From: Thalassia testudinum
Lineage: Eukaryota; Streptophyta; Magnoliopsida; Alismatales; Hydrocharitaceae
NCBI GenBank assembly: GCA_037157565.1
Contig: JAZHRO010000050.1
Location: 41,336,501 to 41,400,500, forward strand
DNA: 64,000 bases
Reading direction: 5' to 3'
Part shown: in pieces, positions 2,807 through 55,410 of the stretch
How positions within the stretch are numbered: position 1 is the stretch's first letter
Layout: each line of letters opens with the position of its first letter
Translations under genes and position numbers: made by a program
Notes under the pieces: model-generated
What the model was told of the DNA's origin: nothing
The model's database searches: none
The model's input: only the letters and a program-made list of their open reading frames with translations

Positions 2807-5260
2807 TGATTGCGCAGCAATCATAGGTCTTAATTGACCTAAATTGGGCTAAAATTTAGCGTAAGTTAGGGTAATTCATGCATGCATAAGCATTATCTGC
2901 ATCTTTACTGCTTTACTTTAGTTATGCACAAAATAATGTTATAATGTGCTGATTAAGTGCATTATGTCAATTGTAGCTAATAAGCTAATCTGGAGCTGGA
3001 TCAGGAATAATGAGTGTTGCAGCAGAGCTGGAGTAGAAGCCTTAGATTAGACATAGGAATAATGATGTAAGGGAGTTAAGGTTTGCTATTCTACTAAGTA
3101 GGAATAAAGCTGTGAAGAGCTTAGGTCCATCCTAGCCCTAGGATAGCCTAGAGACTTCCCCAAGCCTTAGCCACCCTTAGATTAGGTCACAGCACCCTAG
3201 GAAGCCCTAAAACCCTAGTTCCAACCCTTATCTAGACGTCCAGATAAGCTATAGGATGTCTAGAACCCTTAGCCAACTCCCGCACACCTTAAATCCACTT
3301 CTGCTGTGTTATTGGACATCTAGACGGTTTGTCAGATGTCCAATTTCTGCAGAATACTGAAAATAGAACCTGGATTTCCCCCTGACTCAGATTGGTCATC
3401 CAGAACTGAAGTCTGGACTTCAGAATTTTGAGTATAAGTCGTCTGATCATGTTTTTGGACATCTGGAACTAGTCTCTAGTCCCTGTTTTGAGATTCAAGC
3501 CTTGATCTTGGATTTCTAGCTGCCTAGACCTAATCCCAACCCCATAGGAACCTAAATTAAGGTGTCCTAACCCTAGCACATCACCTCTAGACCTACCTAA
3601 AGACCTAATTAGGTCCTCACCAAACCCAATTGACTTAGATCAAAGTCAATTACCATCACCTAAGCCAATTGGACTCAACTGACTTAGATCAAAGTCAATT
3701 ACCATCACCTAAGCCAATTGGACTCATTGAGTCCAATTGAGCTCAAATCTCAACCTACACAAGTTCAATTGAACTCTGTGAGAGTCCAATTGACCTAAAC
3801 CCAACCTAATTGAATTTTTTCACTCTCAATTAGGTTTACACTCATTCAATTAAACTTAGGTTAAGTTTAATTGTAATTTCCCCTTAGCAACTAGGGCATG
3901 GAATCCTAATTCAAGGTATACACCTACCCAAACCCCTTAGGACCTAACCTAGACCTCTTAGACACCTAGGGCACGACCACACACACACACACACACCCAT
4001 TCACGCACCCACATTTCTCTAGAGTTCTCTAGAACCCTCTTGAAGTGGCTCCAACTCTTGGTTGCCAAATTTAGCAACCAAGAGGCATTCAATTCTTAGA
4101 TCCACAAATTATGGATCTAAGAACCACTTCTATCCTCTCTTGCCCGGCCACTCTTGGGCTCTCTCTAGAGAGTTCCACACTTCTCTTGACAGAATTCCTT
4201 AGGTCTATAAAAAGACCTAAGGGGTGGCCATTTTCACCCATCCACTTTTTGGCCATACATGCTTGGCTCCATCCACCTCCACTTAGGCTAGCCACCACCC
4301 TCTCCACTCCATCTCCACGAGATGAGCACTATCATGAAGGACACCATGCCAGGATGCTAGATCACTCCTCCAACATCTATCCAAGGGTCGGCCTAAGCTC
4401 CATTGGTCGCCCCTCATTCTCCTCTCTACCACTCCAAGGCCATCGGAGACCACCTCTGAATGCCCTCACTTCTGATAGATTAGTAACTAGCTCTTTACAT
4501 TTACTGCTTTTATTTATTGCTTAGTAGTGTAGTCCTTATTCTCTCCCAATGATGCATGTAAAATCCCCTTGTAGATTCTTGTATGCGATTGTTTTCTGGT
4601 AGCTAGATTTACATTTTAAGCATTTCTATACAAGCTTTCCTCTACAGTTCTTGTTGAAAACACCTCTCAAAATGAATGAATGAAAGATACATTTATATAG
4701 ATATATATATATATATCTGTATGTTTTGAAATCACCATGAGCTTATTGATTTCCTTCTTTTTTGTGTGATTCAAGTTGCCTATTTTCACTCATTTATCTA
4801 TTTCGCAACAAGCATATAGACGCATTTTCTGTAAATAGTCTCCACCTCAATAGAATCATGCACACAGAAACTCACACTTTCACCTTTGTGATCTATTTAA
4901 CACATGTGCACGTAATCAGGGTTCATAATGGAAGTGGTGAAATCTTAATCAGAAGACTGAAAATCAACGTGCGATTTTAAACAGAGTAGAACGGTAAAAG
5001 GTCGAATTCAAAAGTAAAACAAATGCCTCCCAGAGACGAACGACCGAGACTTAAAGTCTCGTTATCTTTAGAAAATAATTTTTGTTTGATCGTATTGCGC
5101 ACTATACTACAATGTTTTCCTATCAACACATGCTCTATGAGATACCAATAAATAAGCCCCAACACTTGGTCGTTGAAAGAGTTGTGTAAAGCCCTTATGG
5201 ATGAAGAGAAGAGAAAGGGTTGAGAGAGAAGAAGTAGAGAATAGTGCCTTTGCACTGTAG
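2807..5260 (+). repeat. Solo LTR B1 (family B); right boundary uncertain
   Basis: It starts with the palindrome TGATTGCGCAGCAATCA, exactly as the B2 LTRs do at 8175 and 15681, and follows them through the GGACGTC-type motifs, the (CA)n tract near 3977, the TATA box and the AT repeat near 4700. The close match ends around 5126. The left flank GCAAAG (2801-2806) recurs at 5260-5265 where A1 homology resumes, which would place the end near 5260. However, the last ~130 bp have no counterpart in B2 and do not end in CA. Either the end is a variant or part of the junction was rearranged. Confidence 0.7.
4206..4213 (+). promoter_or_regulatory. TATA box of LTR B1
   Basis: TATAAAAA in the context AGGTCTATAAAAAGACC. 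The same sequence lies in both B2 LTRs (9565 and 17050). Confidence 0.6.
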
Positions 5261-36984: not shown

Positions 36985-37546
36985 CTTCCCCTGATCCGGT
37001 CTCTCATTCCCAACTTGGTTTGGCCAGAGACAACCCCTCAAATTCGTCTCTTCTCCTTCGGCCAAACATCCAGCGAGCTCCAGCGACTCCTCCTCCCTCT
37101 TCTTGTCTCTCTGCCACAATACTAGTGGCAGAGTCATCTTCGCCTCCTTCGTTCGCATCGTGCCATACTTGCGCATGTGCCAACTACCCTCATCATCACC
37201 GTCCCCCTCCACTGGAATCTTCGTCTTCGACGGTGGCAAGTACCCGCCGACTGCCATCTCGCCCCCCTTCATCCTTAAACTAGGTTAGGTATCTTCCCCT
37301 CTCTCTACTCTTTATTTTTCCCCTCTTTATTTCCCAAAACACCCCTCGACAACCACAGACCACCCTCACCTTCTCCACCCCCGGCAGACCACCGGTGAGG
37401 TGTCTCCGTCACTCCACACACCCATCCACCTCGCCAAACCCCTCAAAAGCTCCGCCATCATCAACTGATCATTTCCCCCCTCTCCATCGACCACCATAGC
37501 CTCCACACATTGCCCCCAAATAGACCCATCTCCACGGCCACAGACC

Positions 37547-39244
37547 TGAAAGTTCCCTACTAGGAGGGGGTGACGTAATAATTGCGGAAATAAAATAAAC
37601 AATCTCACAAATAAGCAATCACATGAGTACACAATTATTTTTAGGTGGAAACCCAAACCGGGTGAAAATCACCTCCTAACCCTCTCGAGTTAGGATTTTC
37701 CGATCAACCAAGTTCATCAAATCCACTAACCGAATCACTTTAAAACGAGGGTGATTCAACCTCAGTACAACCATGCTACAAGTACGAGGGTAGCGTTCCT
37801 CAACCCCTTCTCTCCACGAGAAGGATTTTGTCCCACGAAGGAGACGGGAATTCGCAAAGCGAATACCCAACCAAATAACAAAGATAAAAGAAACAACATG
37901 TCCTATAGAGCCAACAAAGTAATTATCAACCTAGCTTCTATAGGAATTAGGAAACTCCCCTTTGCAAGGAGTGCGTCGAGTTGATGACGCGGTGCGTGAG
38001 CCACGCGATGGTGCAACTTCGCTCTCCTAAACAACGACGGGAGAGCGGGTGCGCAAAGCTTGATGCTCTCAAGAGAATGGAGCTTGAGCTTGGAGAGCAA
38101 GAGCTATCTAGGACACAAGAGAGTGGAACCATGTTGCTTAAGTGTGTCTTGTGTTTCTCTTAGTGTGTATTTTTGTGTGTTTGTGTTGCAAAGGCTCCCC
38201 TCTATTTATAGAGGCCTTAGGAAGGCTTTGGAAGGCTTGGAAAAGCTTCCATAGCCGTTGGGTGCAAAGCCCAAGAGAATCAGGCTGAAATCAGGACAAT
38301 GATTGCATTTGACAGGGTCATCAGACGTCTAATTCTGGCATCAGACGTCTGGAAGACCACTTTAAGACTTCTGATTTAAAGGTCAGACGTCTGATTCTAT
38401 GCGGGTTTCCTCCTGACTTGAATCAGATCTAAACAGGGTTATTGTTCAAGTCGATCAGACGACATACAGGACGTCTGGCACTATGCCTAGAAGTCTGGAA
38501 ACCAACTTTTTCTACGGAATGGATTTGCAACGGCTAGAAAATCTCTGAGAAGAGATTTTCGGGTCAGTCGAGGCAAAACGGTCAATTATCAGACGTCTGG
38601 GAAGACCTATGGACGTCTGATAAGGCTCTAACGGTCATATACTGCCGTGCTTGCTAAGTTAGCCAACGGTCCACTATCTGGACGTCTGGCAAGTCCATCA
38701 GACGTCTTCTAAGACGTCTGGACTAAGGTCTGGATGTCTGATTTCATCAGACAGAAAACTATGTCCAGCCTAAATGGTTATCAGACATCTGAAACAACAG
38801 TCAAACGTCTTAAAATACTTTATCAGACGTCTGATTTGGGAATTAGTCGTCTGGAAGTGCTGTTTGAGCCCTATATTGGTTTTCTAAGTATTCTACAGAA
38901 AACCTAAGTATCCTAGGACTACTTTTAGGGTTCTTTGAGGCTCTTTAACATAATATTCTAAGGAAAATAAAAAGAGCAAGAAAAATAAAGACAAGAGATA
39001 CATGAAAGGATAAAAAAGAATCTATCCTATTCTTCTTGTCTTATAACTTCAATCTGTCGCTCCACGCGAACCTCCTCTATTTTCCGTCAAGCTCCTCCAA
39101 TCCGTCCTGGATGCGAGCTCGAGTTCCGTTTAAGCACGTCTACATTTGCAATTGACCTGAAATCTAGGACTCAAATTGCAAATGTTAAATAACACGCGTT
39201 TTATTATCATCAAAACAAGTGATCGTGGTGTGCTAGCACCAACA
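37547..39244 (-). repeat. 3' LTR of element E
   Basis: On the minus strand it starts TGTTGGTGCTAGCACACCAC and ends CTTTCA. TATAAATA is at 38203-38210. About ten GACGTC palindromes lie between 38330 and 38840, upstream of the TATA box on this strand. It lacks a 20-bp segment present near 43365 in the other LTR. Confidence 0.92.
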
Positions 39245-39563
39245 ATCTCCCCCTTTTTGATGATGACAAAATCGTAAATAATAATGCATAAAATCCTCCC
39301 CCTTTTTGACATTATCAAAAATGTTTGATTTTAAATTTCCTATAACTCCCCCTTAAAACATGCTCTTCTATTTATTTTAACAAAGGTGATGTCCTCCCCC
39401 TTTTTATAACAACAAGATAGTTATTATTTTTCTCCCCCTTACTAAAGGAAATTTAGCTAACTTGCATCTCCCCCTTAAAAATTGACAATTAGCTCATCAT
39501 TTTTTTAACTCCCCCTATCTAAATGCTTATGATAAAAAGATAGGGTTCAGAATTTTACCTCAC
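39245..39563 (-). other. Multiple polypurine tracts of element E
   Basis: On the minus strand GGGGGAG occurs seven times (plus-strand CTCCCCC at 39247, 39296, 39346, 39394, 39432, 39468 and 39509), mostly preceded by an A run. The copy next to the LTR is AAAAAGGGGGAGAT. Repeated tracts are a known hallmark of Sireviruses. No gene lies here. Confidence 0.85.
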
Positions 39564-41300
39564 CTACCATGGCCAATAAAATGGCCCGAATGGTGGTGGT
39601 GGATGCCACATCGGATGGGGCTCCCATCCGTAGCTTGGAGGCCCGGGCATTGGCACTGGTCTCCAATCTGGTGGTCGACGTGCGGTGGGTCCGTCGTTTG
39701 TTCGCCGTTTCGTCGGTCTTCTTGTTCTCCTCCTTGGTCTACTCCTTGGTTCTCCCAACTTGAGTTGACCAGCTTTGAGCTTGTAGGTCCAGTCCTTTAT
39801 GTTGTAATTATCCCTGAACCCTACAAAACAAGATTCTAATTCTTTTTTCTGTATCCAAGTGGGCTTGGATCCGGATCTGTTAGCGGGTCTCCTTGATGGA
39901 GATCCTTTCTCAATCTTAGGGCTATAAAAATTATCTACTTTATTGATTAATTTGTTAGAGTTTTCCCTAAGACATGCAATTTCTTTTTCTATAATACTCA
40001 TCTTAGTCTTTAAATTAGAGATTTCTAACTTTATACTATCATTTTCCTCAATCAATTTATTATTTTCATTGATGAGGTCTTGATTTTCTAATAATAGGTT
40101 ATCAATTCTAGGACTAGCTTCTATGTCCTTAAGTTGTTTTTCTAAACTATTATTTTCATTTTTAAGAAAACTAAGGTTCTTTTTCATACTTTTGTTTTCT
40201 ATTTTAAATGATTTACTAATCTCAAATAGTTCATTAAAAGCTTCTTGTAAATCGAGATTTACCTCATTGTCGCTGTCGTCGCTTCCGCTTTCGCTATCGC
40301 TGTTGCTTCCTCTGGCCATGAAACCAAAGCAAGCGGTTTCTTGTTTTTCTTCTTCTTCTTCCTCCGAGCTGGAATCGTCCCAAGTGGCTTAGAATGCCTT
40401 CTTCTTAGATTTCTTCTCCTTTTCCCTTTTCTTCTCCTTTTTGAGAAGCGGGCACTCTGGTCGTAGGTGCCCTTTCTCGTTGCAGTGGTAGCAACGTCTC
40501 GGGCTTTCCTTCTTCTCCTTTTTCTCTTTCTTTAATTCCCTACAAAATTTGGAAAAATTTTTAAGTAAAATTCTAAAGTCTTCGTCGTCGGAACTTACCT
40601 CGCTATCCGACGCGGCTCTAAAGGCAAGAGTCGTCTTCAATTTGGGCTCCGGTGTATCCTTCTTCTTCTGCTTCAACTTTGTCTCGTAGGCCATTAGATT
40701 GCCTAGGAGATCTTCCATGTTGAGCTCCTCTACTTTGTTCCCCTCCTCGATGGAGGTGACTTTCTGTTCCCACTCCGGTCCAAGGGAACGAAGAAGCTTT
40801 CCTTGAAGCTCCCCCTTGATGAAGGTCTTCCCTAATGCTTTCAAATTATTTACAATGAGAGTGAACCTAGTGTTCATCTCACTTAAAGACTCGTTAGGTT
40901 TCATAGAAAAAGATTCATATTCTTGAGAAAGTAAATTAATTTTAGAAGTTTTTACCTTAGAGGTACCATCGTGAGTTACCTCAAGTGTGTGCCAAATCTC
41001 GTATGCGGTGGCGCATTGCGAGATTCTGTTGAACTCCTCCGGGCTGAGTGCACAATACAACGCATTCATTGTTTTCGCGTTGAGAGAGAGCTCTCGGATC
41101 TGCTGCTGCGAGTAGCCTCCCGCGGGTTTCTCTGGGATGTCGAAGGGGGTCTCGCACCTGGCCCAGACTGTGAAATCGGTGGCTTGAAGCCAGGTCTTCA
41201 TCCGCAACTTCCAGTAGCTGTAGTTGTTCCCGTCAAAGTAGGGTGGTCGGACGGTGGACTGCACTTCGGAGATTCTGATTGCGGCTATGCTTCCCTCCAT
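39564..41300 (-). pseudogene. Gag of element E with one nonsense codon
   Basis: The 579-codon frame starts at the ATG at 41300 (MEGSIAAIRISEV) and is broken only by TAA at 40389-40391; the frame continues unchanged to 39564. Residues 25-230 are the copia Gag core (RPPYFDGNNYSYW, MNALYCALSPEEF). A CCHC knuckle CYHCNEKGHLRPEC lies near 270-283. An acidic serine-rich patch and a long coiled coil follow. After the usual WIQKK region the end is unusual: arginine-rich, then proline- and tryptophan-rich, ending FGPFYWPW. Gag normally forms the particle. With pol absent, enzymes would have to come from another Sirevirus. Confidence 0.88.
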
Positions 41301-41872
41301 GATCTTCTTGCCTGGTTGTTACGTCGAAACAACAAAACATCTTTCCGTGCCAGATCAAGACGATTCCATATGACCATCAAAACCAGTTCAGTAAGTTCCC
41401 CTTTCTCAGCTGCCTCCTCTATTCTCTCTTCAATTTCTTCACCAGCTAGAATAAAATTTGACACTAACTTTCTTGCTTTGCGAACTTCTCTCTCAGGGAA
41501 TCCCTTCAGCCGCATGCCTATTTCACGATATTCCTCTATCTTTCTCCTCTCAACTTCTTTTTCTTTCTCACGGTAAGCATGCCACTCCCGAGTTTTTTCT
41601 CTTTGCCGGGCCTGCCATTCCTCGTCATAGAACTCGTCTGGCATTCCTTCTGGCAGTGCTTCCATTTTGCAGTCCGCTGTTCCCGCCTTCTTCTCGACTG
41701 AGGTATGCGAAGGGGCTGATTCCGAAGTGGTGAACGCTGGGGACCACCGCCTAACGAGCGCTGCTGGTGGCACCGGAAGTAGCCGTTTGGGTGGAAGGAA
41801 CCAGTTGTGGTGGCGGCGATGGTGGTGGAGGCAGTGGAGACCGAAAGGATGCACTCCGGTAACGGAAGACAT
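41285..41872 (-). pseudogene. PAC: Captured PALE CRESS-like host gene fragment in the leader of element E
   Basis: The 195-codon frame lies between primer site and gag. Residues about 60-178 (41339-41695) read EGMPDEFYDEEWQARQREK, then a charged helix, RLKGFPEREVRKARKLVSNF and GELTELVLMVIWNRLDLARK. I recognise this as the N-terminal half of PALE CRESS, a nuclear-encoded chloroplast protein needed for plastid 23S rRNA maturation. The preceding 60 residues (FLPPKRLLPVPPAALVRRW) are compatible with a transit peptide. There is no intron in the piece, which suggests capture through RNA. Similarity stops at 41339, after which element sequence resumes (LLFRRNNQARRSW) and the frame ends 16 bases inside gag in another frame. 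The C-terminal half of the protein is absent. The name is from memory of the family and needs a search. Confidence 0.75.
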
Positions 41873-41981
41873 GACACTAGTACATAGACGTTACCACTTC
41901 TTGAGAGGAAGCGCTCCGGCAACGGAACGGGAGAACTGCCTCGGCGAGGGAATCGCTGTCTCCACCACCATCGTCGCCACC

Positions 41982-41993
41982 GCTCTGATACCA
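41982..41993 (-). other. Primer-binding site of element E
   Basis: The minus strand reads TGGTATCAGAGC two bases after the 5' LTR end, the standard copia site for initiator tRNA-Met. Confidence 0.92.
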
Positions 41994-41995
41994 AT

Positions 41996-43713
41996 TGAAA
42001 GTTCCCTACTAGGAGGGGGTGACGTAATAATTGCGGAAATAAAATAAACAATCTCACAAATACGCAATCACACGAGTACACAATTATTTTTAGGTGGAAA
42101 CCCAAACCGGGTGAAAACCACCACCTAACCCTCTCGAGTTAGGATTTTCCGATCAACCAAGTTGATCAAATCCACTAACCGAATCACTTTAAAACGAGGG
42201 TTATTCAACCTCAGTACAACCACGCTACAAGTACGAGGGTAGCGTTCCTCAACCCCTTCTCTCCACGAGAAGGATTTTGTCCCACGAAGGAGACGGGAAT
42301 TCGCAAAGCGAATACCCAACCAAATAACAAAGATAAAAGAAACAACAAGTCCTATAGAGCCAACAAAGTAATTATCAACCTAGCTTCTATAGGAATTAGG
42401 AAACTCCCCTTTGCAAGGAGTGCGTCGAGTTGATGACGCGGTGAGTGAGCCACGCGACGGCGCAACTTCACTCTCGTAAACAACGGCGGGAGAGCGGGTG
42501 CGCGAAGCTTGATTCTCTCAAGAGAATGGAGCTTGAGCTTGGAGAGCAAGAGCTATCTAGGACACAAGAGAGTGGAACTATGTTGCTTAAGTGTATCTTG
42601 TGTTTCTCTTAGTGTGTATTTTTGTGTGTTTGTGTTGCAAAGGCTCCCCTCTATTTATAGAGGCCTTAGGAAGGCTTTGGAAGTCTTGGAAAAGCTTCCA
42701 TAGCCGTTGGGTGCAAAGCCCAAGAGAATCAGGCGGAAATCAGGACAATGATTGCATTTGACAGGGTCATCAGACGTCTAATTCTGGCATCAGACGTCTG
42801 GAAGGCCACTTTAAGACGTCTGATTTAAAGGTTAGACGTCTGATTCTATGCGGGTTTCCTCCTGACTTGAATCAGATCTAAACAGGGTTCTTGTTCAAGT
42901 CGATCAGACGACATACAGGATGTCTGGCACTATGCCTGGACGTCTGGAAACCAACTTTTTCTATGGAATGGATTTGCAACGGCTAGAAAATCTCTGAGAA
43001 GAGATTTTCGGGTTAGTCGAGGCAAAACGGTCAATTATCAGACGTCTGGGAAGTCCTATGGACGTCTGATAAGGCTCTAACGGTCATATACTGCCGTGCT
43101 TGCTAAGTTAGCCAACGGTCCACTATCTGGACGTCTGGCAAGTCCATCAGACATCTTCTAAGACGTCTGGAATAAGGTCTGGACGTCTGATTTCATCAGA
43201 CAGAAAACTAAGTCCAGCCTAAATGGTTATCAGACGTCTGAAACAACAGTCAGACATCTTAAAATACTTTATCAGACGTCAGATTTGGGAATTAGACGTC
43301 TGGAAGTGCTGTTTGAGCCCTATATTGGTTTTCTAAGTATTCTACAGAAAACCTAAGGATCCTAGGGTTGTGCAGGTGTTCCTAGGACTACTTTTAGGGT
43401 TCTTTGAGGCTCTTTAACATAATATTCTAAGGAAAATAAAAAGAGCAAGAAAAATAAAGACAAGAGATACATGAAAGGATAAAAAAGAATCTATCCTATT
43501 CTTCTTGTCTTCTATCTTCAATCTGCCGCTCCACGCGAACCTCCTCTATTTTCCGTCAAGCTCCTCCAATCCGTCCTGGATGCGAGCTCGAGTTCCGTTT
43601 AAGCACGTCTACATTTGCAATTGACCTGAAATCTAGGACTCAAATTGCAAATGTTAAATAACACGTGTTTTGTTATCATCAAAACAAATGATCGTGGTGT
43701 GCTAGCACCAACA
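41996..43713 (-). repeat. 5' LTR of element E
   Basis: It has the same ends as the 3' LTR. TATAAATA at 42652-42659 (minus) would drive the element and thus the PAC-like frame and gag. It has about thirteen GACGTC palindromes between 42770 and 43310, several of which are changed by single C-to-T or G-to-A differences in the 3' LTR. Confidence 0.92.
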
Positions 43714-44047
43714 AGACCAACCTAGGCATGCATGCCTAGGCCGCCCCGTGCCACACCAACCATCTAGCCACCTTTGTCGTGTCACGGCAAAGCTTTCTAA
43801 GTGTTTTGACAGGGCCATGAGGCCGTATTTGTGGTGACAAGCTTTGACCCCTATCCACCATTGAAGCAAGCTGAAGAAGCTTGCTATCTTCGCAAGTAGC
43901 TTCCAGGTACTAGGAGACCAAGTCCCAGGTGCGCGGCTTTCCTCCGCAAACAGCATCAGCCATTTATCGAGGGCCAAAGCACTCTGCAGCAACTACGATT
44001 GAGAGTGAGCTCCTGTGAGTGCGCATGCAAAGCAGGTGGGATGTTTA

Positions 44048-50900: not shown

Positions 50901-51999
50901 ATGACATCATCAACCAAGCACACCGAAGGCCAGTCATCCATACGTCCTCCCTATTTCGATGGGACAGACTATGGGTATTGGAAGAGGAGGATGCAAGCAT
51001 TCCTCAAGGCAATGGATGAGGAGTCGTGGACCCTCATTCAGGAGAAATACACTAATTTGGAGCTGCAGGAAGGAGTAGTATGGATGGTGGATAAGAAAAA
51101 AAAGATCATGAGCAATGTGAAAGCAATGAACGCACTGTATTGTGCATTATCAAAGGAGGAGTTTAACCATATCTCGGCTTGCAAATCTGCATACAAGATA
51201 TGGAATACGATGCAAGTCACCTATGAAGGTACTAACAAGGTAAAAGAAACATGCATATCTATTCTAACAGAAAGTTATGAGTGTTTTAGGATGGAGAAAG
51301 GTGAAATAATCAAGGCGATGTACATGAGGTTTGGGGATATCATTAACGCCATGAAGAATTTGGGAGTGAAGTTCACTGAAGGACAACTTGTAAGGAAGAT
51401 CCCTTACAAGCAATTGGTCTCCAAAGTCAATAGCGATTCAAGAGGCAAAGGATCTTTCAGTCCTTTCTCTTGATGATCAGATTGGAAGCCTCATGGCCTA
51501 TGAGGTCCAACTGGAGAATATGAAGAAAAATGAGGAGAGATCAGTAACCAAGAAGAAAGAGCTTGCATTTAAAGCTCTAAAGGAAGATTAAGATCTTGAA
51601 GATTCTGACTCCAACGAAGAAGAGCTTGCTCTTCTAATAAGATGATTTCAACAATTCATCCAAAAGCAAGGTAAAAGAGTAAATAAATTTTCAAATGACA
51701 TAGTTTGTTTTGAATGCAAGAAAAAGGGGCACGTATGAAAAGATTGTCCAATGATCAAGAAGAAAAAGGAAGAAAAGAAGAAAGATAAAGAAGTTGATTG
51801 CAAGAAGAAGATTTCAAGAAAACCATACAAAGCTACTTTGGATGATAGTAATTCCAACATGGAATCCTCCTCTAAAGAATCCAAGGAAAATGAAGTTGGT
51901 CATCTGTGTTTGATGGCAAACGATGACAATTTGAAAAATGAGGTAGATTCTAAAGTTACTTTTAATGAATTCTTGCAAGCATATGGACTTGTATTATAA
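50901..51999 (+). pseudogene. Gag of element F, frameshifted
   Basis: The ATG at 50901 opens MTSSTKHTEGQSSIRPPYFDG, close to Gag of E (RPPYFDGNNY). The core runs to about 51400, where the frame shifts. It then continues in another frame through LSLDDQIGSLMAYE to a TAA near 51590. The CCHC knuckle (CFECKKKGH ... KDC, 51706-51747) contains a TGA at 51736. The 51751-51999 piece is a lysine-rich tail ending YGLVL. Confidence 0.85.
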
Positions 52000-52111
52000 A
52001 GTTAGCTTAATTTAAAAAGAAAATAAAGTTTTACATAATAACTACAAGACTTTGGAAATAGAAAAATCTTGTTTAATAGAGTTAGATATAGTAAAAGATA
52101 CTAATTCATAA

Positions 52112-53500
52112 TTGCATGCAAAGATAGTAGAATTAGAGGATATTTATGAACATTTTGAGGGAACTTTAAACAACCTTAAAACAACTACTAGATTGAATAC
52201 TGAATTTTGTAATGCATTAAAAGCAAAATTTCATGGTAAAAAGAACACACAAAATAAATCACAAGCACCTAGGCATGCATGGATTTACCAAAAGGTCAAG
52301 AATCCCAAGAATTATAGATCCAACACAAAAGTGATTTATAAATCTAAGGATTTGAAGGGAACTAGCCATCAAGGACACAAAAGAAAATGGGTACCTAAAT
52401 TAGATGTATTAAATTGTTTAGCTGGTCAAGAAAGACAAGTGGATCCTAGACAGTGGGTGTTCGAAGCATGTTACAGGACACTCCGACCTCTTTACCAAAT
52501 GGACAAGAATTCAAGATGGAGGAGACATCAAGTTGGGCGACAACAAACGTGGTCACATTATTGGTGAAGGTACAATAGGTAATTCATCTAAGCAAGCATG
52601 AAATGTACTTTTAGTAGAGAATTTAAAATATAACCTGCTTAGTGTTAGTCAAATATGTGATAATGGTTGTGATGTATTGTTCACAAAAATTAGATTTAAT
52701 TGAAGGCTTTAGATATGAAAATATCTATGCACTTCATCTTTCACAAGATAAATTTGTGAAATGTCTGCTTGCCACCCATGTTGAGGTGGATTTATGGCAC
52801 CATAGGCTAGGTCACATAAATCATAAACATTTAAATAAGCTAGCTAAAAATGAGTTAGTAAGGGGCCTACCCAAACTAACTTATAAAAAAGATGCATTGT
52901 GCAAATCCTGTGAACTAGAAAAAATGCACAAGGCTTCAGTTAAACCAAAAGACTTAGTTTCTACATGTCCTTTAGAGTTGTTACACCTTGATCTATTTGG
53001 GCCAACATGATTTGAGAGCCTAAATGGATCAAAATTTTGCCTAGTTATTATTGATGACTTCTCAAGGTTCACTTGGGTCAACCTGAAACATAAAAATAAC
53101 TCATTTGACTCCTTCCTAGGTCTTGCTCAAAGACTTCAAAAGGAAAATTCATCTTCAATTCTTAGACTTAGGACTGATCATGGGGGTAAATTTGAAAATG
53201 AAAAATTTTCAAGTTTTTGTGTCAACTCTGGCATATCCCATGAATTTTCTTTCCCTTGGGCACCATCTCAAAATGGTGTTGTAGGGCACAAGAATCGCAC
53301 TTTACAAGAATGCTCCCAAACTTTGCTCTTGAAGTCTGGGCTTCAAAAATATTTCTAGGCTAAATCCATTAATACAACATGTTATATTATTAATAGAACT
53401 CTCTTAAGGCCTATTATTAAGAAAACACCATATGGCTTTATTATGTGAAGTCTCCTAGGACTTCATATTTTAAGGTGTTTGGAAGTTGATGTTATTTATT
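52112..53500 (+). pseudogene. Protease and integrase region of element F, decayed
   Basis: Piece 52112-52567 ends at the protease. WVFEACYRT replaces the expected active-site block because of a small deletion and frameshift near 52460, so protease is dead. 52780-53010 holds the GAG-pre-integrase finger (LWHHRLGHINHKHL, CKSCELEKMHKAS). The integrase core follows with a TGA at 53008-53010, DDFSRFTWV, LRTDHGGKFEN and the PSQNGVVGHKNRTL block, in which the expected catalytic glutamate is not seen. After 53360 stops are frequent. Confidence 0.8.
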
Positions 53501-53799
53501 AAACACCCGAGATTGACTTGATAAGTTTGATGCTAAAGGTGATAAAGGCATCTTTATTAGTTAGTCAACAAGAAGCAAAGGTTATCAAGTCTTTAATAAA
53601 AGGACTTTTGTCATAGAAGAATCCCTACATGTTTCATTTGATGAAACAACTTTAGGAGAACCAGAACCAAATCATTTAGAGTCTGATGATGAGGATACCC
53701 ACTTCATCGATGTATCAAAAATGGAAGATACACAAAATGTACATGATCTTCCAAAAGAATGGATACACCACAAGGATCACCCTCAAGGTTAAATTATAG

Positions 53800-54610
53800 G
53801 TGATATTGAACAAGGTGTAAAACTTGATCTCATTTTAGAGCTGATTTTGTCCTTAATGCCTTTGTTTCTCAACTTAAACCCATGAAAGTTGATGAGGCAT
53901 TAAAGGATGAGTCATGGGTTGTAGCTAAGCTGGAGGAGCTACTCCAATTTACAAGGAACAATGTATGGGACTTGGTACCCACTCCTGAGGGTAATTCCAT
54001 TATTGGAACCAAGTGGGTGTTTCGAAATAAATTGGATGAATCTAGTTCAGTAATCAGGAATAAGGCCCGACTCGTAGCTCAAGACTATAACCAACAGGAG
54101 GGAATTGACTTTGATAAGGAATTTGCTCTTGTTGCCCGCTTAGAGTCCATACAGATGCTACTTGCCTTCGCAAGTGCAAAGGGCTTCAAGTTATTTCAAA
54201 TGGATGTCAAGAGTGCTTTTCTTAATGGCTATATTAAGGAAGAAGTTTATGTTCATCAGCCTCCCGAGTTCGAGGACATAGCACACCTAAAGTATGTATT
54301 CAAGCTCAATAAAGCGTTATATGGATTTAGGCAAGCTCCTAGGGCCTGCTATGATAGACTTAGGTCCTTCCTTCTCCAGCATGAATATAGAATTGGAGTT
54401 GTTGATTCAACTCTTTTTGTAAAGGAAGAAGGAAATGACATCCTGTTGGTTCAAATATATGTCGACGATATTATATTTGGATCAACCAAGGAGTCCCTGT
54501 GTCAGCATATTTGTGAGACTATGAACACTGAGTTTGAAATGAGTATGATGGATGAACTCAATCTTTTTAGGCCTCCAAATCCAACAATTAGACATAGGTA
54601 TTTACATTAG
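53800..54610 (+). pseudogene. Reverse transcriptase of element F
   Basis: An open segment from 53882 has the copia RVT_2 features: NVWDLVPTPEG, IIGTKWVFRNKLD, ARLVAQDYNQQEGIDF, QMDVKSAFLNGYIKEEVYV, and the catalytic YVDDIIFG near 54460-54485. One frameshift near 54570 moves the end (LGLQIQQLD) into the next frame. The upstream linker (53500-53880) has many stops. Confidence 0.88.
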
Positions 54611-55410
54611 TCAAACAAAATATGTTCTTGAAATTCTCAAGAAGTTTGACTTTGAAAAAGTAAATGGAAAAGAAACTCCAATTACTCCATCTACTTCTTT
54701 TGGTGAAGATTTATCCAGCAAGAAGGTAGATGAAAAGAAATATCGGGGTATGATAGGTTCACTACTATACCTTACAACCTCTAGACTTGATATTCTTTTT
54801 ACTACATGTTTATGTGTGAGATTCCAATTCGAACCCAAGGAATCTCATTTAAATGCAGTAAAAAGAATATTTAGATACCTAAATAGCCAAAGAGATCTTG
54901 GTCTCTTTTATCCTAAAGCACAGACTTTAGATATATTATCCTATAGTGATGCAGATTATGAAGGGAGTCGAATAGACTGAAAGAGCACTAGCGGCACCTG
55001 TCATTTTATTGGAGAATCCCTAGTTTCATGATTCTATAAAAAATAGACATGTGTCTCACTTTCTACGATCGAAGAAAAATATATTGCTGCTTCACTTGCT
55101 TGCTCTCAGGTCATTTGGATGAGGCAAACTTTGTCCAATTTTGGATTATCTTTTGTGCAATCCAAAATTTTATGTGATAGTACAAGCGTAATTAATTTGT
55201 CTAAAAATCCGGTACATCATTCATGTACCAAACAGAGATGTTTGACATCATTTTCTTAGAGACAATGTGCTACAAGGTACCATTCAATTAGAATTTATAG
55301 ATTCACAAAACCAATTGGCAGACATTTTTACAAAACCTTTTGCAGCAAAGAGATTCTGCTTTATAAGAAGAAAATTGGAACTTTGTACTATCAAAGAAAT
55401 TCAAAATTAA
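54552..55410 (+). pseudogene. RNase H end of element F pol
   Basis: 54552-54980 carries YRGMIGSLLYLTTSR and LSYSDADYEGS, with the first acidic residues of copia RNase H. A TGA at 54978 follows. The rest (STIEEKYIAASLA, then the DILTKP-like LADIFTKPF near 55330) is readable through stops and at least one frameshift. It ends the pol region near 55410. Confidence 0.8.

Follow-up and report, generated by a model that had tools for sequence, protein, structure and literature searches.

The window, a 64,000-nucleotide stretch of Thalassia testudinum DNA, contains on its reverse strand an LTR retrotransposon, element E, which carries spliced sequence of a host gene between its primer-binding site (PBS) and gag (Table 1). 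The two LTRs of E are 96.2% identical by blastn (K2P 0.0276, i.e. a divergence of 2.8%), and the insertion is flanked by a 5-bp target-site duplication (TSD), AGACC, whose copies match perfectly. The PBS, TGGTATCAGAGC, presumably pairs with the initiator Met tRNA. Pfam recognized Retrotran_gag_2 in the gag region (E 5e-26) and found no pol domain in E. Several CTCCCCCT runs, seen by eye and unscored, lie near 39246-39520. Repeated polypurine tracts before the 3' LTR are a hallmark of Sireviruses, the label first attached to E; the element itself lacks pol, and the family to which it belongs looks non-autonomous, with gag only.

Between the PBS end and the gag ATG, E has 681 bp, compared with 40-44 in the 20 PAC-free family members that we read and about 34 in element F; the first-pass annotation had given about 690 bp for E and about 35 for F. 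Element F (50901-54980 of the window), a copia element in a decayed state, has gag and a reverse transcriptase (RVT_2, E 4.6e-57). Two pieces of its gag match that of E at only 44% and 31% identity, which makes F a distant comparator. As had been proposed, the additional sequence in E sits between both LTRs; these belong to one TSD-flanked insertion.

Table 1. Features of element E, in positions of the window.
Feature	Position	Strand	Basis or remark
5' LTR, 1,718 bp	41996-43713	-	blastn of LTR against LTR; ends and TSD read
3' LTR, 1,698 bp	37547-39244	-	blastn of LTR against LTR; ends and TSD read
TSD AGACC, copy 1	43714-43718	.	Read from flanks
TSD AGACC, copy 2	37542-37546	.	Read from flanks
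PBS	41982-41993	-	Comparison with 20 relatives; element-derived part of 5' leader stops here
20-nt filler, inverted copy of PAC exon 1	41962-41981	-	Match spans 41956-41981, 24/26
Spliced PAC exons 1-4 as captured, 623 nt	41339-41961	-	Comparison with host gene
Captured PAC exon 1 (5'UTR and start)	41698-41961	-	Native C52:65393795-65394058; 8/264 differ
Captured PAC exon 2	41621-41697	-	Native C52:65394168-65394244; 1/77 differs
Captured PAC exon 3	41426-41620	-	Native C52:65405833-65406027; 195/195 identical
Captured PAC exon 4	41339-41425	-	Native C52:65488715-65488801; 1/87 differs
195-codon ORF: PAC residues 1-178 and 17 codons of element leader	41285-41872	-	
Exon-1 arm copied inverted by the filler	41809-41834	-	
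Remainder of family leader	41301-41338	-	Starts directly after the position of the relatives' post-PBS CAG
gag, first 303 codons, up to internal stop	40389-41300	-	
251-codon ORF, rest of gag region	39564-40319	-	Pfam: weak coiled-coil matches only
Polypurine-tract-like run adjoining 3' LTR	39246-39258	-	Read from sequence

The captured piece was identified as PALE CRESS (PAC) by protein and genome searches, on which its identity rests because Pfam assigned no family to the 195-codon ORF. A search of 5.8 billion proteins with this ORF gave 375 matches at E <= 1e-3. In the best 120 of the 375, which span E 1.3e-47 to 3.2e-41, those with a name other than 'hypothetical' or 'unnamed' were nearly all PALE CRESS; the top-ranking one was a PALE CRESS protein from Zingiber officinale (E 1.3e-47; 57% identical across 91% of the query), and the top identity among these 120 was 82%, over 53% of the query. 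A PDB search with the ORF yielded only two non-meaningful matches (E 0.62 and 0.68). In the host genome (G000, 4.26 Gb), a 108-residue core had three matches, with all 32 candidates scored: one was E itself (100%), and the other two were exons of a single gene of contig C52. A full-length PAC query recovered two more exons of the same C52 gene. The captured piece and the host PAC were sisters in a tree of 29 rows with support of 100/100, the branch of the captured piece having zero length; the placement of the host PAC within this tree was weakly supported, on a long branch.

The ORF of E contains the conserved core of PAC, and it is a fragment, comprising residues 1-178 only of a protein whose full length is about 310-325 aa. 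This amounts to about the first half (178 of ~320 residues), as the first-pass annotation had described it. The first codon of the ORF, at 41872, is the native start of PAC, and the plausible transit peptide that had been noted ahead of the core is therefore the host's own PAC N-terminus. The last 17 codons (41338-41285, including the stop) are element leader, and the captured DNA (41339-41961) extends beyond the ORF.

Compared with the host's own PAC, the captured DNA corresponds to four exons of the one C52 gene (264, 77, 195, and 87 nt), with 613 of 623 bases identical. The three intervening introns, of 109, 11,588, and 82,687 bp, are all GT...AG and have been excised exactly, i.e. the junctions fall at exon borders. 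The first-pass annotation had recognized an intronless PALE CRESS frame and taken the lack of introns to indicate an RNA-level event; the protein matches, the tree, and the direct comparison with the host gene substantiate both points.

The ten differences between the captured and host sequences consist of six in the first 65 nt (41961-41897 versus C52:65393795-65393859; P 1.9e-4 for this cluster) and four coding differences, all of which change an amino acid. Outside the cluster there are four differences in 558 nt (P of four or fewer = 0.12). Ten differences in 623 nt compare with ~8.6 expected on E's side alone, from half of the LTR divergence. As these counts fit the expectation from LTR divergence, the capture of PAC and the insertion of E were probably close in time. 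An alignment of 12 rows (E plus 11 further PAC proteins) shows an invariant leucine at residue 163, where the host gene encodes valine; this host codon (exon 4, C52:65488715-65488801) reflects a recent host change, an allele, or an assembly error.

The host gene is large, spanning at least 228 kb (C52:65393795-65622454), with introns of 11.6, 82.7, 36.6 kb and more, and its exon 5 lies at C52:65525443-65525493. An E-family LTR (C52:65380405-65382112) is located ~12 kb upstream of exon 1 in sense orientation, is 88% identical, and is followed by what appears by eye to be gypsy polymerase sequence. Another (C52:65534717-65536303; 73%) lies antisense in the intron after exon 5. The upstream LTR was set aside as a promoter of a chimeric RNA, as no PBS or leader follows it and the filler described below would be left unexplained.

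We then compared E at its 3' seam with the host gene and with an uncaptured leader (a slash marks the boundary). At the exon-4 donor the host gene reads ...CGGAAAGAT/gtaagttc (AAAGAT/gtaagt). The closest uncaptured leader, L045, reads ...TATCAGAGCAG/GTTTTGTTGTTTCG, i.e. ATCAGAGCAG/GTTTTG, and E reads ...CGGAAAGAT/GTTTTGTTGTTTCG (AAAGAT/GTTTTG). On the PAC side, the seam is the exon-4 splice donor, which coincides with a codon border; on the element side, it falls directly after the CAG at the PBS edge, a CAG followed by GTTTTG in L045 and by GT in all 20 leaders read. This putative acceptor is the second AG of CAGAGCAG, with another AG ahead of it. The GT common to both sides leaves a 2-base ambiguity, and one of the three possible placements fits both splice signals exactly. 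Taken as it stands in the sequence, the 3' seam speaks for exon trapping by splicing rather than for a random template jump, although a jump with 2-nt microhomology at the common GT would be possible.

At the 5' seam, the element sequence ends at the PBS and is followed by 20 nt, GGTGGCGACGATGGTGGTGG, that do not belong to the element leader. A BLAST search against 220 kb of host sequence aligned nucleotides 15-40 of the E interior with the reverse complement of native exon 1 (65393922-65393947) at 24 of 26 positions (E 1.3e-4). Because the composition of this filler is simple, shuffle controls were needed: the observed score of 17 was reached by none of 5000 dinucleotide shuffles of the filler (best 16), and 2000 shuffles of the exon came no higher than 11. 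A stronger control is the genomic count of the 22-mer GGTGGCGRCGATGGTGGTGGAG, which occurs three times in 4.26 Gb, namely in the filler, in E's copy of exon 1, and in host exon 1. With no further genomic copy of the 22-mer, an upstream alternative first exon was rejected as the source of the filler. A reading in which the inverted copy lacked 9 nt was also replaced, since the BLAST match requires no deletion.

The inverted orientation could derive from the cDNA itself. Apart from one G-T mismatch, a cDNA end CTGTCT could pair with an AGGCAG in the exon-1 region of the same strand, and extension of this pairing would give the present filler but for one base; such priming would explain one of the two mismatches as the primer's own base. 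Filler and PBS meet with zero overlap, as would result from joining strong-stop DNA end to end. These features are consistent with the filler being the product of a snap-back of the cDNA end.

Reading the two seams together, we consider it fairly likely that E is a gag-only copia-type element in which spliced host PAC exons were trapped and then rescued by snap-back. A family member would have resided in sense orientation within PAC intron 4 and been transcribed from the PAC promoter. Splicing in cis of the exon-4 donor to the CAG abutting the element PBS would have produced a capped RNA consisting of PAC exons 1-4, leader, gag, and LTR. This chimeric RNA may have been packaged with a normal element RNA, which would have supplied the minus-strand start. 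Minus-strand cDNA would then have run through gag and the PAC exons to the RNA 5' end, where the PBS was absent. There the cDNA 3' end would have folded back, CTGTCT on AGGCAG, and been extended by 20 nt with its own exon 1 as template, and the folded cDNA would have been joined end to end to plus-strand strong-stop DNA ending at the PBS. The resulting two-LTR DNA could have integrated, giving one insertion. The order proposed for the strand transfers is modelled on textbook LTR reverse transcription, and the first captured base is assumed to be the mRNA start. Splicing and snap-back leave the clustering of six differences within the first 65 nt unaccounted for, which counts against them.

The route rests on one case. 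As a general path of 5'-transduction in plant LTR elements, it would require that the PBS 3' edge of the family serves as a splice acceptor, that sense insertions in introns trap upstream host exons, and that RNAs lacking a PBS are rescued by snap-back and end joining; this extension is tentative and, in our view, somewhat doubtful.

An unlikely alternative is plain template switching, in which reverse transcriptase jumped from E RNA to a (partly) processed PAC RNA and back, without any splicing between PAC and the element. According to a 2026 review (PMC13317346), abnormal switching is among the routes accepted for LTR elements of plants, GT is found on both sides of the 3' seam, and the 5' seam is itself a strand switch. 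However, the jump would have to land exactly at the exon-4 donor and exactly after the CAG, and the GT overlap requires an RNA that kept intron 4 with introns 1-3 removed. By a rough estimate, random jumps would give both seam positions by joint coincidence in about 0.1-0.5% of cases.

The location of the donor insertion bears on a further alternative. Intron 4 of the host PAC (65488802 to about 65525442), read whole, contains no sense E-family remnant in this assembly, so the donor insertion was lost, is allelic or on another haplotype, or was never in cis. In the last case, exon 4 of the PAC pre-mRNA could have been trans-spliced onto a separate, abundant family RNA with no insertion in PAC. 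Such an event predicts the same exact seam as splicing in cis, and the family is large. Unlinked nuclear genes are rarely trans-spliced to each other in plants, however, and a low-frequency insertion in the 36.6-kb intron would be an easier source, which makes this explanation quite improbable to us beside cis splicing followed by snap-back.

The size of the family was apparent from the gag search of the host genome, which produced 45,538 first-look candidates; the 130 scored comprised E and 129 others at 92-96% identity. Most of the 129 have longer open frames, commonly of 577-584 codons. The gags of several relatives stand in tandem ~3.8-3.9 kb apart, a spacing too short for pol between them, which suggests arrays of gag-only elements with common LTRs. 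At C52:33530968-33549136, gag relatives are spaced at 3,884 bp, four of them consecutively and a fifth farther away. As judged from these copies, the E family looks abundant, gag-only, non-autonomous, and copia-type.

The PAC piece was absent from all 20 relatives read among these 129, each of which has TGGTATCAGAGC (TAGTATCAGAGC in L041) followed by a leader of 40-44 nt that opens AG/GT and then by gag. A DNA search of the genome with the 623 nt returned six matches: E, the four host exons 1-4, and a fragment on contig C29 (79%). PAC capture in E is the sole such copy found in the 4.26-Gb assembly. E's leader type has 156 exact genomic copies with the normal GAGCAG in front, and a pattern requiring other bases at two GAGCAG places had two matches, E and a GAGCCAG copy, a 1-nt variant of the normal PBS. 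This pattern covered E's leader type only (the second leader type of the family is GTCTCGCG...); it passes over exons with G at either place and altered leaders, roughly half of such cases, and within this range revealed no second capture beside E's leader type. Viral contigs scanned with E's gag and a PAC alignment contained no confirmed relative. The proposal that other family copies be examined for the piece thus left E as the only carrier found. As for the idea that PAC is mobilised with the element, the piece does lie within a TSD-flanked insertion, but with the capture found once this amounts to one insertion.

The C29 sequence (C29:49101794-49101989 and 49103254-49103289, i.e. L051:1995-2190 and 3455-3490) is an older processed PAC fragment comprising exons 1 and 2 without intron 1. 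It ends exactly at the 3' end of exon 2, after which a frame with CCHC knuckles can be seen by eye, and it is split by ~1.26 kb with 87% direct repeats near its ends, resembling a TRIM. It is possibly a second capture of PAC exons at an exon end.

It is very improbable that the PAC-like ORF is a selected gene of the element, or that E makes a working, plastid-targeted truncated PAC. The frame does stay open for 195 codons, with the native start and N-terminus, but chance suffices to keep a young copy open, each of the four coding differences from the host alters an amino acid, a single genomic copy was found, and 20 of 20 relatives read lack PAC. Pfam found gag in none of the four long PAC-bearing database proteins (429-1365 aa): two had nothing, one a sub-threshold DUF659, and one PPR repeats. 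The idea of an element gene was dropped on the single copy, the PAC-free relatives, and these gag-less proteins. Nor did the best 120 of the 375 protein matches include, in the length range of 107-341 aa, a close element copy near 97-100%, the DNA identity of the host exons. Capture of the PAC segment at the DNA level, by recombination or nested insertion, has nothing in its favour beyond the presence of the piece and was dropped as hardly credible once three introns, ~94 kb in total, were seen to be absent exactly at GT/AG; only an older intronless donor could save it, and the sole older fragment found, that on C29, has 79% identity and reaches no further than exon 2.

The literature with which we compared E comprises the papers cited below together with PMC4838847 and PMC7264820. 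Captured host genes in LTR elements number 672 in rice, 1,343 in sorghum, and 424 in maize (PMC3726574). For 5'-transduction, the 2026 review states that plants have provided no example (PMC13317346), and the titles and abstract openings of the literature searched do not mention any plant LTR element in which spliced host exons precede gag. The first-pass annotation had regarded the capture as undescribed. Host-gene capture by plant LTR elements is in fact of a known kind; what appears new, judging from the seams, is the splicing and snap-back route in such an element, and this part may indeed be undescribed.

In maize Bs1, the transduced segments are intronless and lie beside remains of gag. 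Like E, Bs1 is an LTR element into which segments of host genes have been transduced (PMC13317346; PMC8764390), and E likewise has its fragment between LTRs with a TSD, without introns, and with fragment-free relatives in existence. Bs1 drew on three donor genes, whereas E drew on one. The seams of E consist of a splice donor joined after the PBS-edge CAG and of an inverted filler. In tomato Rider/SUN and a TRIM with a P450 fragment, host sequence was also transduced by a plant LTR element; both are classed as transduction, the TRIM case as 3', while the exons in E are upstream of gag (PMC13317346). TR-GAG elements resemble E in having two LTRs and gag without pol, and movement of one has been shown in Arabidopsis ddm1 (PMC8704663). 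The passages of that paper describe no host exon capture, and E departs from the intact gag of these elements by its internal stop after 303 codons.

A parallel to the proposed route is found in the SVA groups SVA_F1 and pt_SVA_D6 (MAST2, STK40), in which, as in E, the 3' end of a host 5' exon was spliced into the interior of a retroelement and then retrotransposed (PMC6139936). The captured sequence of E ends at the 3' end of a host exon, and the uncaptured element has an AG at the join; a source insertion downstream of the trapped exon is absent from this assembly. Because intron 4 holds no source insertion, we say that E works like, and not that it is, exon trapping of the SVA_F1 type. SVA is a non-LTR element, whereas E, as an LTR element, must also regain a 5' PBS and LTR, and the SVA groups reached 84 and 94 copies (PMC6139936) against one for E. 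The donor gene, the uncaptured element, and both seams of E are legible nearly base for base in one genome, and this legibility allows splicing to be separated from template jumping, which is seldom possible in older, blurred captures. If the proposed route is true, it suggests that self-priming of a cDNA hairpin can rescue element RNAs that have no primer site of their own, it predicts spliced reads running from host exons to the CAG beside the PBS, and E would be a plant LTR counterpart of SVA exon trapping.
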